A stretch of 64,000 nt of DNA, from the NCBI GenBank assembly GCA_900318445.1, contig ONKO01000004.1, positions 87,443 to 151,442 on the forward strand, in the 5' to 3' direction. The notes under the pieces are model-generated. The model saw only the letters and a list, made by a program, of their open reading frames with translations, was not told the DNA's origin and did no database searches. Positions 25,656 to 55,888 of this stretch are shown in pieces. Numbering within the stretch: position 1 is the first letter of the stretch; the number at the start of each line of letters is the position of its first letter. Source of the DNA: an uncultured Bacteroidales bacterium. Its GTDB lineage: Bacteria > Bacteroidota > Bacteroidia > Bacteroidales > UBA932. The position numbers and the translations under genes are program-made.

Positions 25656-27123
25656 TCCGGATGAATTCGACGGATTTCATGATGTAAGGGTGCATGTAGG
25701 TGTCCGTGTCAATGAACGGCACTTCCTTGCGGTAGTCGGTGAAGATCTGCTCCAACTTCGGGGAACTCTTGAGCGGCCGGCGAAACTCCAGCGCCTGCGC
25801 GGCGTTGAACAGTTCGATGGCCAGCACGGTTTCTACGTTGTCCACAATCCGCACCAGTTTGGTGGCGCTGTTGGAACCCATGGAGACGTGGTCTTCCTGG
25901 CCCTGGGAAGAGGGAATGGAGTCGCAGGAAGCCGGCCAGCACAGGCCCTTGTTCTGGGAGACGATGGAGGCCGCCGTGTACTGGGGAATCATGAATCCGC
26001 TGTTGAGGCCGGGAGAAGCCACCAGGTACTTGGGCAGGCCGCGGAGACCGTCGATGAGCTGGAACGTGCGGCGCTCGGAGATGCTGGCGAGTTCGCTCAT
26101 CGCGATGGCCAGGGAGTCCATGGGAATGGCGATGGGCTCTCCGTGGAAGTTGCCGGCCGATATCACCATGTCTTCGTCGGGGAAGATGTTGGGGTTGTCG
26201 GTGGCCGAGTTGATCTCGTTCTCAATGACGGACTTCACGTAGGCGATGTTGTCCTTCACGGCGCCGTGCACCTGCGGGATGCAGCGGAAGCTGTACGGGT
26301 CCTGCACATGCACCTTGGGCCGGTTGATGAGCTCGCTGCCCTCCAGGATTTCCATGAACTTTTTACCCGTGAGGATTTGTCCGGTGTGGGGGCGCAGGAG
26401 GTGAGTGAGGGGCAGGAAGGGCTCGATGCGGCCGTCGTAGGCATCCAGCGACATGGCGCCGATGATGTCGGCCCAGGCGCTGAGCCGGATGCTCTTGAGG
26501 ATGCTCCAGATGGCGTGGGCGCTCATAAACTGCGTGCCGTTGAGGAGCGCCAGGCCCTCCTTGGACTGCAGCCGGATGGGCTCCCAGCCCAGCTCTTTCC
26601 AGACATCGGCCGAGGGACGGACCTCTCCCTTATACAGCACTTCTCCCATGCCGATAAGCGGGAGGCACAGATGGGCCAGGGGCGCGAGGTCTCCCGATGC
26701 GCCCAGGGAGCCCTGCTGGTACACGATGGGCAGCACGTCTTCGTTGAACATGTCCACGAGGCGCTGAACGGTGAGAAGCTGGGCGCCGGAATGGCCGTAG
26801 GAGAGGTTCTGCACCTTGAGCAGCAGCATCAGTTTCACAATCTCCGGACGCACTCTCTCTCCGGTCCCGCAGGCATGGGACATGACCAGGTTGTGCTGCA
26901 GCTGGCTCAGGTCTTCCTTGGGAATGGTTACGTTGTAGAGGGAACCGAAGCCGGTGGTGACGCCGTAGACGGGCCGCCCGATGTCCTCCATCTTGCGGTC
27001 CAGGTACTCGCGGCATTTGACGATGGCTTCTGTCGACTCCTTCGAAAGGGTGAGTTTTTCTTTGTTGTCCAGGATTTCCTTCACTCGCTCCAGCGAGAGG
27101 TGTTCACTTGATATACTGTGCAT
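25639..27123 (-). CDS. hutH: Histidine ammonia-lyase
   Basis: 494 residues, close to the usual ~500. It deaminates L-histidine to urocanate and ammonia, the first step of the pathway. The autocatalytic MIO prosthetic-group triad Ala-Ser-Gly lies at 142-144 in GSLGASGDLAPLAH. Other family features are VYGVTTGFG near residue 52 and the QEDHVSMG segment late in the protein. It overlaps hutU by one base at its start and hutI by 17 bases at its end, so it is co-transcribed with both. No anomaly is seen in the sequence. Confidence 0.95.
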   Translation of the reverse strand: MHSISSEHLSLERVKEILDNKEKLTLSKESTEAIVKCREYLDRKMEDIGRPVYGVTTGFGSLYNVTIPKEDLSQLQHNLVMSHACGTGERVRPEIVKLMLLLKVQNLSYGHSGAQLLTVQRLVDMFNEDVLPIVYQQGSLGASGDLAPLAHLCLPLIGMGEVLYKGEVRPSADVWKELGWEPIRLQSKEGLALLNGTQFMSAHAIWSILKSIRLSAWADIIGAMSLDAYDGRIEPFLPLTHLLRPHTGQILTGKKFMEILEGSELINRPKVHVQDPYSFRCIPQVHGAVKDNIAYVKSVIENEINSATDNPNIFPDEDMVISAGNFHGEPIAIPMDSLAIAMSELASISERRTFQLIDGLRGLPKYLVASPGLNSGFMIPQYTAASIVSQNKGLCWPASCDSIPSSQGQEDHVSMGSNSATKLVRIVDNVETVLAIELFNAAQALEFRRPLKSSPKLEQIFTDYRKEVPFIDTDTYMHPYIMKSVEFIRNESYL

Positions 27124-29213
27124 TATTGTAAAGCTTTTTGAATGATCTTTTCATCGGCCGCGTTGGGAAGGGTAACCTTGAGGCCGGGAGTTCTGGCCAT
27201 TTCACGTTCGATGGCAAAGCGGGCGGCGCTGCTACGGGCCCAGCTGCGGCGGGCAATGCCGTTGTTCACGTCCCAGAAGAGCATCTCACGGATGTGGCGG
27301 TCACTGTCCTCGGAACCGTCGATCACCATGCCGAAGCCGCCGTTGATGACTTCTCCCCAGCCCACGCCGCCGCCGTTGTGGATGCTGACCCACGTGGCGC
27401 CGCGGAAGCCGTCACCAATGACGTTCTGCACGGCCATATCGGCGGTGAAACGGCTTCCATCATAGATGTTGGAGGTTTCGCGGAAGGGGGAGTCCGTTCC
27501 GGAGACATCGTGGTGGTCGCGGCCCAGCACAATGGGGGCCGATATCTCGCCCTTCCGGATGGCCTCGTTGAAGGCAAGGGCTATCTTCGTGCGGCCTTCG
27601 CAGTCGGCATAGAGGATACGGGCCTGAGACCCCACCACCAGGTGGTTGCGGCCGGCTTCCTCAATCCAGTGAATGTTGTCGCGCATCTGGCCGGCAATCT
27701 CAGCGGGGGAAGATGCCGCTATTTCGGAGAGCACCTTCACGGCTATTTCGTCGGTCTTCTGAAGGTCCTCGGGCTTTTCGCTCATGCACACCCAGCGGAA
27801 CGGGCCAAAGCCATAGTCAAAATACATGGGACCCATGATGTCCTGCACGTAGGAAGGATAGCGGAAACTGCCGTCTGCCTTGAGGACATCGGCTCCGGCG
27901 CGGGAGCTCTCCAGGAGGAAAGCGTTGCCGTAGTCAAAGAAGTACATGCCGTCTGCGGCAAGCTGGTTGATGGCTGCGACATGCCGTCTGAGCGAGGCCT
28001 GCACGGCCTCCTTGAAGCGCTCAGGCTCTTTGGCCATCATGCTTTTGGACTCCTCCAGGCTATAGCCCACAGGGTAGTAGCCGCCGGCCCAGGGATTGTG
28101 GAGGGACGTCTGGTCACTGCCAAGGTCCACGTGGATGTGTTCTGCCGCCAGGCGTTCCCACAGGTCTACGACATTGCCTACGTAGGCGAGCGAGACGGGC
28201 TTACGGGCAGCCACGGCCTCCCGGATACGGGGGATCAGTTCGTCCAGGTCTCGATGCAGCTCATCCACCCAGCCCTGTTCGTAGCGTTTTTCGGCCGCCT
28301 TGGGATTGATCTCTGCCGTCACGCTCACAACGCCCGCAATGTTGCCCGCCTTGGGCTGGGCTCCGCTCATGCCGCCCAGGCCCGCAGTCACAAACAGCAG
28401 TGCGGCTGTAGCCTCTCGGTGCTGCGTCCCGGGGGCATCGTCCTTTTTTATTGCCCCCGGGGCGCAGCACTGGGAGGCGCGGGGGAAACTGGTCCGTGAC
28501 AGTACCTTCCTGGCTGCATTCATCACCGTAATGGTGGTACCGTGCACGATGCCCTGCGGCCCAATATACATGTAGCTGCCGGCGGTCATCTGGCCGTACT
28601 GGCTCACACCCAGGGCGTTGAAGCGCTCCCAGTCGTCGGGCTTGGAGTAGTTGGGAATGACCATGCCGTTAGTCACGATTACGCGCGGAGCATCCTTGTG
28701 GCTGGGAAAGAGCCCCAGCGGATGGCCGCTGTACATGACCAGGGTCTGCTCGTCCGTCATGGTGGCGAGATACTGCATGGTAAGCCGGTACTGGGCCCAG
28801 TTCTGGAAGATGGCTCCGTTTCCGCCGTAGATGATGAGCTCGTGCGGATGCTGGGCCACCCGCTCGTCCAGGTTGTTCTGGATCATGGCCATGATGGCGG
28901 CCGCCTGGCGGGACCGGGCCGGATACTCGTCAATGGGCCGGGCATAGATCTTATAGGAAGGCCTGTAGCGGTACATGTAGATGCGGCCATACTCCCTGAG
29001 CTCTGCCGCAAATTCCGGTGCCAGGCTCTCATGCAGTGCTTCCGGGAAGTACCGCAGCGCGTTCTTGAGCGCCAGCACCTTCTCCTTGGCGCTCAGGATA
29101 TCCTTGCGCCGGGGTGCATGGTTAATCTCCGTATCGTAGGGTTTGGCTTCCGGCAGCGTTTCCGGAATGCCTTCAAGAATTTCCTTCTCAAAATCCCGTT
29201 GTGTGTAACTCAT
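27123..29213 (-). CDS. hutU: Urocanate hydratase with an in-frame repeat-derived insertion
   Basis: 696 residues, the long form of urocanase, converting urocanate to imidazolonepropionate with NAD+. Family features include IIYGGNGAIFQNWAQY, MYSGHPLGLFPSH, the NAD-binding TAGLGGMSGAQP and the HNGGGVGWGEVINGG region. Between MNAARKV (about residue 237) and the TAGLGG strand lie about 34 residues (238-271) not expected in the family. Most are encoded by a palindromic element at 28411-28478, with the hairpin exactly in frame. If translated, the insert would sit just before the NAD-binding strand, so the enzyme is either tolerant of it or impaired. It starts 86 bases after ftcD, in a leader with a hairpin. 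Confidence 0.92.
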   Translation of the reverse strand: MSYTQRDFEKEILEGIPETLPEAKPYDTEINHAPRRKDILSAKEKVLALKNALRYFPEALHESLAPEFAAELREYGRIYMYRYRPSYKIYARPIDEYPARSRQAAAIMAMIQNNLDERVAQHPHELIIYGGNGAIFQNWAQYRLTMQYLATMTDEQTLVMYSGHPLGLFPSHKDAPRVIVTNGMVIPNYSKPDDWERFNALGVSQYGQMTAGSYMYIGPQGIVHGTTITVMNAARKVLSRTSFPRASQCCAPGAIKKDDAPGTQHREATAALLFVTAGLGGMSGAQPKAGNIAGVVSVTAEINPKAAEKRYEQGWVDELHRDLDELIPRIREAVAARKPVSLAYVGNVVDLWERLAAEHIHVDLGSDQTSLHNPWAGGYYPVGYSLEESKSMMAKEPERFKEAVQASLRRHVAAINQLAADGMYFFDYGNAFLLESSRAGADVLKADGSFRYPSYVQDIMGPMYFDYGFGPFRWVCMSEKPEDLQKTDEIAVKVLSEIAASSPAEIAGQMRDNIHWIEEAGRNHLVVGSQARILYADCEGRTKIALAFNEAIRKGEISAPIVLGRDHHDVSGTDSPFRETSNIYDGSRFTADMAVQNVIGDGFRGATWVSIHNGGGVGWGEVINGGFGMVIDGSEDSDRHIREMLFWDVNNGIARRSWARSSAARFAIEREMARTPGLKVTLPNAADEKIIQKALQ
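28411..28478. repeat. Palindromic element inserted in-frame inside hutU
   Basis: Arms GTGCTGCGTCCC...GGCA at 28419-28436 and TGCCCCCGGGGCGCAGCAC at 28452-28470 pair over 18-19 bases with one mismatch, with a 15-base loop containing TTTTTTATT. The complementarity extends imperfectly outward (GCCTC at 28411, GAGGC near 28478). It encodes residues about 246-268 of HutU, a segment rich in Pro, Gly, Cys and Lys that is unlike the enzyme family. The layout resembles gene-internal palindromic elements such as those of Rickettsia, by analogy only. Confidence 0.8.
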
Positions 29214-53469: not shown

Positions 53470-55842
53470 ATGAAAAGTTATCTGAAATTCCTATCCCGTA
53501 ATAAACTCTACACAGCCATCGAGGCGGTGGGACTGGCGGTGAGCCTGGCGTTTGTGATCCTGATTGGCAGCTATGTGGTGCAGCAATATGAGGTGGCGCG
53601 CGAGTCGCCGCAGTGGAAGCGCACCTTCGTGCTGGGAACCGACGAGTTCCTGGGCCTAACCTATTGGGATAAGGAAGAACTGGAGATGAACATCCCGGAG
53701 GTGGAAGCCGCTACGCACATGGCGCTCCTCTGGCAGCCCATCATTCAAAACGGCGAGGAGCCGCTTCAGGCCTCCGGTATGGAAGCCGATGCCGACTTCT
53801 TCAAGGTGTTCCCGGAGTATCGTCTGGTAGAAGGAAGTGCGGACGATTTTGTTGGAAAGAATGATGTTCTCATCAGCGAGTCCCTGGCCATGAATCTTGG
53901 CGCTCAAATCGGCCAAACCATCCAGGTGGACAAGTTGCCCCGCACCGTCAAAGGCGTTTTTGCCGACTTTGACGGCACCTTCTTCATGCCCTACGATATC
54001 ATTACGCACATTTCAGCCACCTGGGCCGCCGGGCAGAGCAAGGCTTTCAACAGCATCGGCAACTACACCACCTGGTTCCGCGTCCGCGAAGATGCGGACC
54101 CTGACGATGTGCAAGCCAAGGTGAAGGCGCTGATGCACAAGAACTACGATGCCAACTGGAGTCCGGAGAGAGTGGATTCCTGGCGGGTATACCGCATGGA
54201 CGAAGCATTCTTTGCATCGGGAAACAGCAACGGGCTCACCCGGCAGGGTAATGCCCAGATGCTCAGGCTCCTGACGGTGGTTGTTCTGCTGCTCCTCTTA
54301 TCGGCCATCTTCAATTATGTGAACCTGAGCCTGGCCCTTACGGGCAAGCGGTCTAAGGAAATGGCCACCCGGCGCCTGCTGGGGGCCGACAAGACCGGCA
54401 TCCTGTGGAAGTACATCGGCGAATCCGTCGCCTTCACCGCTGTCTGCTTTGCCGCGGCACTGCTGCTGGCCGATCTGCTGGCGCCCATGATGAACAGCCT
54501 CGTTTCCACCGGCGACCCGGATGAACTGATGCTGGGGATGGGAGACACCAGCGTGAGGTTGTCGTTCATGATGACTCCGGGGTATATCCTGGCGTACATC
54601 GCCGGCATTCTGGTCCTGGGTGTAATTAACGGCCTTCTTCCGGCCATCATTGCCTCGCGCTACGAGCCCATCGACGTTATTAAAGGCACCCTCCGGCGCC
54701 GCAACAAGATGGTCCTGAGCAAGGTGTTTATCGTGGTACAGAACGTCTTGACAGTATTCCTAATTGCCCTGGCGCTGGTGATGGAAGTGCAGATGCGTCA
54801 CATGCTCACCCGGCCGATGCACGCTGCCACGGAGAATCGCTATTACATCGAATATTCCGCGCAGAACTACGATATGATGAAGCTCTTCAAGGATAAGGTG
54901 GAACAGCTGCCCTTTGTGACAAAGGCAGGCGTGGGACGCGGTATCCCGGGGCTTATCAATATGACGATGGGCATCAAGGTGGATGAGGAGCATCGCGTGG
55001 ATATGCCCGTCATCGTCTGCGATTCCACCTATTTCAAACTGCTGGGACTGGAGGTGGAGGAAGACTTCGGCCATCCGCTCACGCATTCGCTCTGGATGAG
55101 CCGCAGTGCGTTCAATTCCGCTGCGGTATCGGATACGTCCACCGTATTTCCCCGTAGAATCAACATGAATGGCGCCCAGCCGGAATTTATCGGCGGTGTG
55201 GTGACGGATTTCCCCACCCGGCCGGCCTCCGAGAGCAGTCAGAATCCCAATGGCGGCGTCATCGTAACCCGGGCCGAAGAGCTCAGATATTCGAATTGCA
55301 TGCTCATCGGCACCACGGGAGAGGACGATTCTTACGACAAAGCCATCCGGCAGGCATACAGGGAATATCGGCTGGAGACCTCCGGCGTGGAGGAACCCGC
55401 CTGGCGTTATGGCTTTGTGCGTGACATTAACAAGAAAATGCTGGCTCCTGTTCAGAGGACGCTGCGTCTGGTGGAACTCTTTGCGGTTCTGGCAGTGTTA
55501 ATTTCCCTCCTGGGCCTGCTGGCGATGAGTACCTATTTTGCCGATGAAAACACCAGGCAGATTGCCGTCCGTAAGGTGTTTGGGGCTGACGTGAACAGCG
55601 AGACATGGAGGAATGTACGCAGCTACATGCTGATGGTGGGCATTGCTTGCGCCATCGGCATTCCGCTGGCCGTCTGGGCCGCAAGGGTGTATCTGGAGCG
55701 GTTTGCTTATCGGATTGAAGGCTACGGTTGGGTGTTTGTGGTGGCTGTGATAATTTCCCTGGCTATCGCCTTTGGCACGGTGCTCTGGCAAACGCTCAAG
55801 GCCGCCAGGACCAACCCGGCGACGGAACTGAAAAAGGAATAG
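53470..55842 (+). CDS. FtsX/MacB-type ABC permease 1
   Basis: 790 residues. MacB-type layout: first helix near residues 18-40, periplasmic domain (about 45-270), helices near 275-300, 330-350 and 380-400, a second periplasmic part (about 440-660) and three final helices, ending GTVLWQTLKAARTNPATELKKE. No ATP-binding motifs are present, and no ATPase gene is next to it, so the partner ATPase must be encoded elsewhere. The first ~30 and last ~20 codons are almost identical to those of the paralog at 56534-58855. The stop codon overlaps the start of a dispersed repeat. Confidence 0.93.
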   Translation: MKSYLKFLSRNKLYTAIEAVGLAVSLAFVILIGSYVVQQYEVARESPQWKRTFVLGTDEFLGLTYWDKEELEMNIPEVEAATHMALLWQPIIQNGEEPLQASGMEADADFFKVFPEYRLVEGSADDFVGKNDVLISESLAMNLGAQIGQTIQVDKLPRTVKGVFADFDGTFFMPYDIITHISATWAAGQSKAFNSIGNYTTWFRVREDADPDDVQAKVKALMHKNYDANWSPERVDSWRVYRMDEAFFASGNSNGLTRQGNAQMLRLLTVVVLLLLLSAIFNYVNLSLALTGKRSKEMATRRLLGADKTGILWKYIGESVAFTAVCFAAALLLADLLAPMMNSLVSTGDPDELMLGMGDTSVRLSFMMTPGYILAYIAGILVLGVINGLLPAIIASRYEPIDVIKGTLRRRNKMVLSKVFIVVQNVLTVFLIALALVMEVQMRHMLTRPMHAATENRYYIEYSAQNYDMMKLFKDKVEQLPFVTKAGVGRGIPGLINMTMGIKVDEEHRVDMPVIVCDSTYFKLLGLEVEEDFGHPLTHSLWMSRSAFNSAAVSDTSTVFPRRINMNGAQPEFIGGVVTDFPTRPASESSQNPNGGVIVTRAEELRYSNCMLIGTTGEDDSYDKAIRQAYREYRLETSGVEEPAWRYGFVRDINKKMLAPVQRTLRLVELFAVLAVLISLLGLLAMSTYFADENTRQIAVRKVFGADVNSETWRNVRSYMLMVGIACAIGIPLAVWAARVYLERFAYRIEGYGWVFVVAVIISLAIAFGTVLWQTLKAARTNPATELKKE

Positions 55843-55888
55843 ATTCTTCGCTATCGCTCAGAATGACAGGAAAGCGCTCAGAATGACA
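55841..55888. repeat. Dispersed short repeat, copy 3 with a partial second unit
   Basis: AGATTCTTCGCTATCGCTCA then GAATGACA at 55841-55868, followed by a partial unit AGCGCTCAGAATGACA at about 55873-55888. It starts within the TAG of the upstream permease and ends about where the ORF6N gene on the other strand ends. Confidence 0.75.

Follow-up and report, generated by a model that had tools for sequence, protein, structure and literature searches.

The in-frame insert in the hutU gene studied here is very probably a copy of a palindrome family of about 68-76 nt that belongs to a single Bacteroidales genus, has spread as a mobile hairpin and is kept in frame in tolerant linkers of its host proteins, to which it adds about 15-33 residues. 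The family is best read as a set of gene-compatible mobile palindromes working like the Rickettsia palindromic elements (RPEs), while failing some of the tests for an RPE. An earlier note on this DNA had proposed such an analogue in Bacteroidales and our results support it, with movement as something that we infer from sites that are filled in one genome and empty in another. Palindromes lying in frame within coding sequence are known chiefly from Rickettsia and its kin.

The window, meaning the whole 64,000-nucleotide stretch of DNA that was analysed, carries hutU on the reverse strand (27123..29213) as an open reading frame for a urocanate hydratase of 696 residues, with matches to Pfam PF17391, PF01175 and PF17392. 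The palindromic element, as matched by our family covariance model R1 (69.5 bits), lies at 28405..28484 on the forward strand. Inverted-repeat detection placed its hairpin arms at 28411..28437 and 28452..28478 (both +), and a pattern search placed the 20-nt family loop motif at 28435..28454 (+), with ends that overlap the arms; the motif reads GCATCGTCCTTTTTTATTGC here, one mismatch from the family form GCATCGGCCTTTTTTATNGC. Each arm is 27 nt long, 24 of the 27 bases are paired (89% complementary) and the spacer is 14 nt. The 19-bp inverted repeat with a 15-base loop that had been described before is real, with 18 matches in its 19-base core, but its size was slightly understated. Folded as single-stranded DNA, positions 28405-28484 reach -33.7 kcal/mol against -15.3 +/- 2.2 kcal/mol for shuffled sequences (z -8.45), a value that none of 200 shuffles equalled.

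The hutU frame is open across the hairpin and all three urocanase domains are matched, in agreement with the earlier claim that the insert keeps the frame. The family loop motif runs antisense to hutU, and the insert is translated as ...CCAPGAIKKDDAPGTQH... in the protein. HutU residues 240-269 have no partner in an alignment to 6uek, the best-scoring solved urocanase, which has four residues at that place, and this bears out the view that residues of about 238-271 are foreign to urocanase. By alignment, the insert position is a linker of variable length, and the insert is probably neutral or nearly so for HutU.

Comparison with relatives of the same genus (numbered with G, the source genome being G000) pointed the same way. 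HutU was found in 38 of 61 genus genomes, our own included, and 30 proteins were aligned, namely our own and the 29 for which loci were returned. Between NA(A/G)R(K/M) and (V/M)TAG our HutU has 47 residues, 24 of the 29 aligned relatives have 26-28, and the remaining five show unrelated sequence of 33-46 residues; four genomes beyond the 29 (G028, G160, G236 and G051) have 19 residues in this interval. The insert therefore amounts to about 19-21 residues above the usual linker of the group and 28 above the shortest. It is absent from all 29 aligned relatives, so the alignment with close relatives suggested in the earlier note shows that it is not a conserved loop of the enzyme.

Copies elsewhere in the genome were recognized by their loop. 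A 116-base hutU stretch used as query gave four further short matches, all over the loop, and in the source genome the loop pattern with up to three mismatches gave 20 hits, against 2 for the reversed pattern. Hairpins contain 16 of the 20 hits, L015 being the weakest, and the other four (L024-L027), without hairpins, were set aside. R1 was built from 26 copies: 15 of the 16 hairpin copies of this first own set (L015 left out), nine of ten copies from G077 (L079, cut at a contig end, left out), and L064 and L071. With 150 of 2203 first-look candidates scored, R1 gave at least 23 matches in the source genome at E<=1 and at least 21 at E<=1e-4, and it gave one match in the window, the hutU copy. 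The palindrome is accordingly not unique, being one of at least 21 strong copies, 20 of which have a coding call. The 68-base element that had been expected elsewhere in the genome exists as a dispersed family and not as a verbatim repeat, since the loop alone repeats closely. Conservation among copies lies in the loop and in the fact that the arms pair; the arm sequences are not conserved, and this corrects the earlier description.

Among the 21 own copies, identity is 77% in the loop core, 37% in the left and right arms and 29% in the outer flanks. A left arm agrees on average at 70% with the reverse complement of the right arm in the same copy, a figure for a fixed register in which shifted-register copies score low, and at 37% with that of right arms from other copies. 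In the 26-copy alignment, 79.5% of cells are paired (55.0% after shuffling), the covariation score is 0.641 (0.207 shuffled, at most 0.300 slid) and all 25 stem pairs have changed on both sides. Wobble-only variation was ruled out for the arms by the per-pair counts, in which all codon positions vary.

For broader profiles, 92 copies fetched from 11 genomes, which are not all of the model hits, were used for the analysis of reading frame and 91 of them for conservation and pairing. Conservation stops about 24 nt from the motif, with a second peak in the outer stem, and pairing stays above a swapped-partner control to about 28 nt, a few bases past the conserved ends (61% vs 45%); the element is about 68-76 nt long. 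Copies of G145 and G077 differ from those of the source genome in their innermost eight bases, which stay conserved while pairing no better than the control. The innermost stem of these G077 and G145 copies has conserved mismatched steps in place of pairs, which for most copies of G077 are a tandem G-A, as would suit a conserved loop of enlarged size.

The 20 own copies with a coding call lie in 17 genes, and L097 is the one copy without such a call. Besides hutU, the hosts named by NCBIfam are folC (two copies), ligA, ftsK (two copies), dnaG, atpG, a pcrA/uvrD helicase, an RsmF-like methyltransferase, a priA-like helicase, an rlmB/TrmH-type methyltransferase, the biotin carboxyl carrier, penicillin-binding protein 1C (PBP1C) and an NrnA-like phosphoesterase; the curated cut-off was reached by folC, ligA, dnaG, atpG and PBP1C only, and several other loci are partial. 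Two more hosts we take to be a DUF2723-like membrane protein and an HU-like protein, and NCBIfam had no useful name for these or for the hosts of L091/L092 and L102. The inserts, which add roughly 15-33 residues, lie outside the matched domain in dnaG (domain 1-415, motif near 453), ligA (match to 499, motif near 510) and ftsK (match from 258, motifs near 204 and 246). In the own nrnA-like gene (L083), a long ETEKETEK tandem repeat stands shortly before the element and other repeats follow it. Two copies lie close together in a pcrA-like helicase gene of G160 (L308), both in frame.

A coding call was obtained for 79 of the 92 copies. The call is a codon score with a threshold of 0.1, trained on ten own host genes in frames that we chose, and own-genome calls are partly circular because of this training, nine of the ten genes having NCBIfam support. 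It replaced frame calls from the longest open reading frame because shadow frames in GC-rich DNA misled these, and some of the 13 copies below threshold are probably coding. The loop is read in phase 0 in 71 of the 79 coding copies and in other phases in 8, with 15 and 5 of 20, respectively, in the source genome. The phase-0 peptides are KKADA-like in 57 copies and, in the opposite orientation, ASAFF-like in 14. In 73 of 79 copies third codon positions face each other across the stem, against a share of 1 in 3 expected if phases were free; the copies are related, so that a nominal probability is not to be taken literally. With a motif of 20 nt this amounts to restating phase 0, although four of the seven copies in another register also set third opposite third with the loop read in another frame. 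Selection on the encoded peptide probably explains the bias of frame and orientation, and the prevalence of the lysine-rich reading (57 of 71) is as such selection would give.

The coding habit is not general in the family, since five of the seven copies in G209 have no coding call and one more scores 0.103. These five (L277-L281) are joined by a copy without a call in G089 (L288). Four of the G209 copies have a different loop end, TAACTGCC, and more uniform arms, and they perhaps form an extragenic sub-family.

Orthologous sites are filled in some genomes and empty in others. The close relative G028 shares the copies in the dnaG, rsmF-like, biotin carrier and HU-like genes and is without copies at hutU, rlmB, folC site 1, the DUF2723-like gene, PBP1C and priA; its AtpG is 15 residues shorter than ours. 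Empty sites were found in at least one relative for folC site 1, the DUF2723-like gene, priA, PBP1C and rlmB, and in all 29 aligned relatives for hutU. In other relatives, variation of the linker itself makes the comparison less clear-cut at atpG, folC site 2, dnaG and rsmF. Our rlmB product is 21 residues longer than those of G005 and G028, and rlmB of G160 carries a copy with different arms. Similarly, one linker of the nrnA-like gene holds copies of the same orientation in G000, G028 and G236 and of the opposite orientation in G160, folC site 2 is filled in opposite orientations in G000 and G028, and at folC site 1 the copies of G000 and G160 have arms that are unrelated. Copies that share a linker in different genomes are best read as separate insertions in tolerant linkers, which does not imply insertion at the same base. 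Net insert lengths vary because host linkers vary, no target duplication could be made out, and the ends at rlmB, folC, atpG and other sites are placed approximately; as a conceivable source of the arms, the host gene was compared with them by eye at rlmB, atpG and PBP1C.

Six pairs of copies were compared between G000 and G028. Stem pairs that had changed on both sides and are paired in both genomes numbered 12 of 26 in ftsK, 5 in the nrnA-like and 4 in the rsmF-like gene, and none in dnaG, biotin carrier and the HU-like gene, where the element is identical in the HU-like pair. Pairs unpaired in one of the two genomes numbered 2 in ftsK, 10 in nrnA-like, 5 in rsmF-like, 3 in dnaG, 9 in biotin carrier and 0 in HU-like. 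The arms are therefore partly kept in step and partly decaying. The loop was not clearly better kept than the arms in these shared copies (11 to 16 of 16 loop bases); in the ftsK pair, the outer stem is kept and 11 of the 16 loop bases agree. A matched change in both arms may stem from compensatory mutation, from conversion between copies, from a new insertion where a site was already used or from the copying of one arm from the other.

Some sites host more than one type of palindrome, a point to be added to the earlier description. The inserts that five of the 29 relatives have at the hutU site (L033, L034, L035, L038 and L039) are likewise in frame and differ from our element: by inspection, four of them contain short palindromes such as GATCCCTCGACTACGCTCGGGATGAC and L038 a longer one, and predicted folds form the palindrome in L034, L035 and L038 and not clearly in L033 and L039. 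A similar sequence, again in frame, stands at the DUF2723-like site of G005 (L106), where our genome has the element; by inspection, several of the inserts in these relatives have palindromes of an ATGAC type. A strict-stem scan of the fetched loci for REP-like hairpins gave 5 hits, 2 of them in long open reading frames; because that scan required perfect stems and missed the hutU cases, a pattern search was used instead, with a pattern for this second palindrome type that we wrote to end in ATGAC. It was present in 9 of 17 genomes searched and its reverse in none, with 10-20 hits in each of G005, G027, G037 and G052, 0-3 in the element-bearing G000, G028, G077, G145, G153 and G160, and none in G013, G016, G019, G041 and G044. 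The window itself has a copy of this type, GATTCTTCGCTATCGCTCAGAATGAC, at 55842-55867, whose first base is the last base of the stop codon of an open reading frame (53470-55842) for what is presumably an ABC-transporter-permease-like protein. A second CAGAATGAC unit follows just after it, and the copy is intergenic. ATGAC is a motif reported for RPE-4, -6 and -7 in the part of the RPE literature that we draw on (PMC3767692).

The family has a narrow range. With up to 18 candidates scored per genome, R1 matched 24 of 250 genus genomes at E<=1e-3, ten of them with at least 10 matches, and left 226 without a match; among 295 genomes sampled from the order, it matched our own only. The exact loop form occurs in 47 stretches of named genomes, 20 of them in four Bacteroidales/Bacteroidia assemblies, RGIG7856 from water buffalo reticulum (10), RGIG10175 from yak rumen (4), RUG12971 (3) and Tb.RUG.329 (3), where RUG presumably denotes rumen genomes; the other 27 stretches, one per record, may be chance. 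Carriage by viruses, phages or plasmids was rejected as an explanation, as the exact loop had no match in viral contigs and the hutU copy none in the phages and plasmids searched.

A RAYT/Y1 transposase was considered as mobiliser and rejected. PF01797 was found (E<=0.001) in 10 of 12 genomes with the element and in 8 of 12 without a listed match, which gives no link, and 12 PF01797 loci of about 3 kb each (about 1.5 kb on either side) contained no family copy. Inverted repeats were present in two of four transposase regions of the source genome, but their sequence was a different one. One of the loci viewed (L323, G000 C8:13000-17000) has a Y1 transposase match (about 2011-2184) flanked on both sides by hairpins with TTAGAGTAACTGACGGGT arms, a REP-like unit unlike the family of the hutU element.

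How such a family could arise and persist can be outlined from these comparisons. The hairpin would be recognised through its loop and copied to new sites as a DNA transposition; most landings would be lost, and those in frame in a linker would survive. A variant that we regard as rather unlikely, but worth stating, is that the hairpin is rewritten in place, with the loop held by whatever mobilises it and one arm copied over and over from the other; changes would then reach the host protein in mirrored pairs. The phase that sets third positions opposite third would cost the protein least under such rewriting. The 12 matched changes among 26 pairs in ftsK would be explained equally by fresh insertion at that spot or by conversion from another copy. 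If it were true, the rewritten hairpin would be a small diversity generator for protein linkers and not only tolerated selfish DNA.

Covariation around a conserved loop is the classic mark of a structured RNA, and 57 of the 71 copies in frame 0 face the same way in their gene, as might be expected if the hairpin acted in the mRNA (in stability, pausing or protein binding to the loop) and selection on RNA kept both loop and pairing. We consider this improbable. In the other 14 copies the mRNA would present the complement of the loop, which speaks against a loop function in mRNA; the orthologues of the nrnA-like gene and of folC site 2 carry opposite orientations; and most genomes of the genus have no match. 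Rfam had no family at gathering score in the window, and a known RNA family was rejected; the weaker hits near the insert, below that score, were to hairpin-like microRNA models, as a hairpin is expected to give. The shared phase and the similar peptides in unrelated proteins could in turn suggest a KKADA/ASAFF linker spread as a useful peptide, with the DNA palindrome as by-product. This is very improbable, for peptide selection does not need arm pairing, which is far above controls, the two orientations give two different peptides, and there are copies without a coding call (L097, L269 and five of G209).

It has to be asked as well if each hairpin could have been made in place, by template switching between nearby sequences and with no mobile element. 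Arms that differ at each locus and are barely more alike than flanks, together with pairing that runs slightly past the conserved ends, would agree with such an origin, to which we nevertheless give very little weight: unrelated loci, and different genomes, share the loop motif, and the outer stem forms a second peak of conservation. Two of the genomes are metagenome assemblies, but an artefact of assembly or binning has next to no probability when two different genomes share copies in orthologous genes (dnaG, rsmF-like, biotin carrier, HU-like) and host frames are open across copies. The reading that we retain is that of a mobile palindrome family tolerated within genes.

A separate family of covarying coding palindromes in gut bacteria, in a genus of more than 250 genomes and with filled, empty and reused sites, makes it testable how such elements move, why one reading frame prevails and whether new protein loops result. 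A real preference for replication and repair genes (here dnaG, priA, ligA and the pcrA/uvrD helicase) becomes testable as well. On the practical side, anyone who aligns proteins of these genomes or predicts their structure can misread those that bear an insert.

RPEs are described, in the portions of the reports on which we rely, as dispersed palindromes lying in frame in unrelated conserved genes and encoding a conserved peptide; some orthologs carry different groups near one another, and solvent-exposed positions have been reported (PMC3767692, PMC2229807, PMC10969869). The present family resembles them in being a dispersed palindromic repeat (at least 21 strong own copies with pairing and covariation), in lying in frame in conserved protein genes (20 of 21 own copies coding, with NCBIfam hosts) and in using one frame with a recurrent peptide (71 of 79 over 11 genomes, 15 of 20 in our own). 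It differs from RPEs in its length (about 68-76 nt against 100-150 bp, conservation and pairing ending about 24-28 nt either side of the 20-nt motif), in its conserved loop with covarying arms, and in its phylum, and it is set apart from RPEs by description. Unlike RPE-4 and RPE-6, it has no CGTC end tag above chance: among 91 copies, the outer 30 nt contain CGTC in 11 cases on the left and 10 on the right and GACG in 14 and 12, with about 10-13 expected by chance.

The CGTC and GTAG REPs are small hairpins, some intragenic, with hosts that include DNA synthesis and repair genes; they stand at about the same recB site in two Xanthomonas species, and CGTC REPs are listed for Bacteroidetes, as far as the part of that study used here reports (PMC3733652). 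Our elements are likewise small hairpins that occur in genes, with DNA synthesis and repair genes among the hosts. The stems of CGTC REPs measure 8-9 bp with loops of 4-5 nt and those of GTAG REPs 5-13 bp according to the same portion of the study (PMC3733652), whereas the hutU copy has a 27-nt stem and a 14-nt loop. Unlike REPs of the RAYT/GTAG type, the family has the GTAG tag at about chance level only, with 2 to 5 copies among 91 on either side for GTAG as for CTAC, and, in the 12 PF01797 loci, no RAYT gene beside its copies.

PARCELs, as partially outlined in PMC2996958, are similar as palindromic peptide-coding DNA thought to spread, but are tandem 25-residue amphipathic repeats, many in membrane-targeted open reading frames; here, copies are mostly single and in housekeeping genes, and the double copies within one gene (folC, ftsK, L091/L092 and pcrA of G160) are not a 25-residue tandem array. 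Like bacterial MITEs, which are short non-autonomous inverted repeats described in part of PMC10969869 as sometimes fused in frame, the elements are short inverted repeats within genes; no transposase with matching ends and no target duplication was found for them, their own ends being placed approximately. Wolbachia and Methanocaldococcus jannaschii, judged by the titles of the reports, would be further cases of coding palindromes outside Rickettsia. The open literature searched gave no report of coding palindromes in Bacteroidales, and what is new is the occurrence in this clade, a conserved loop whose arms covary and the rule of codon phase.
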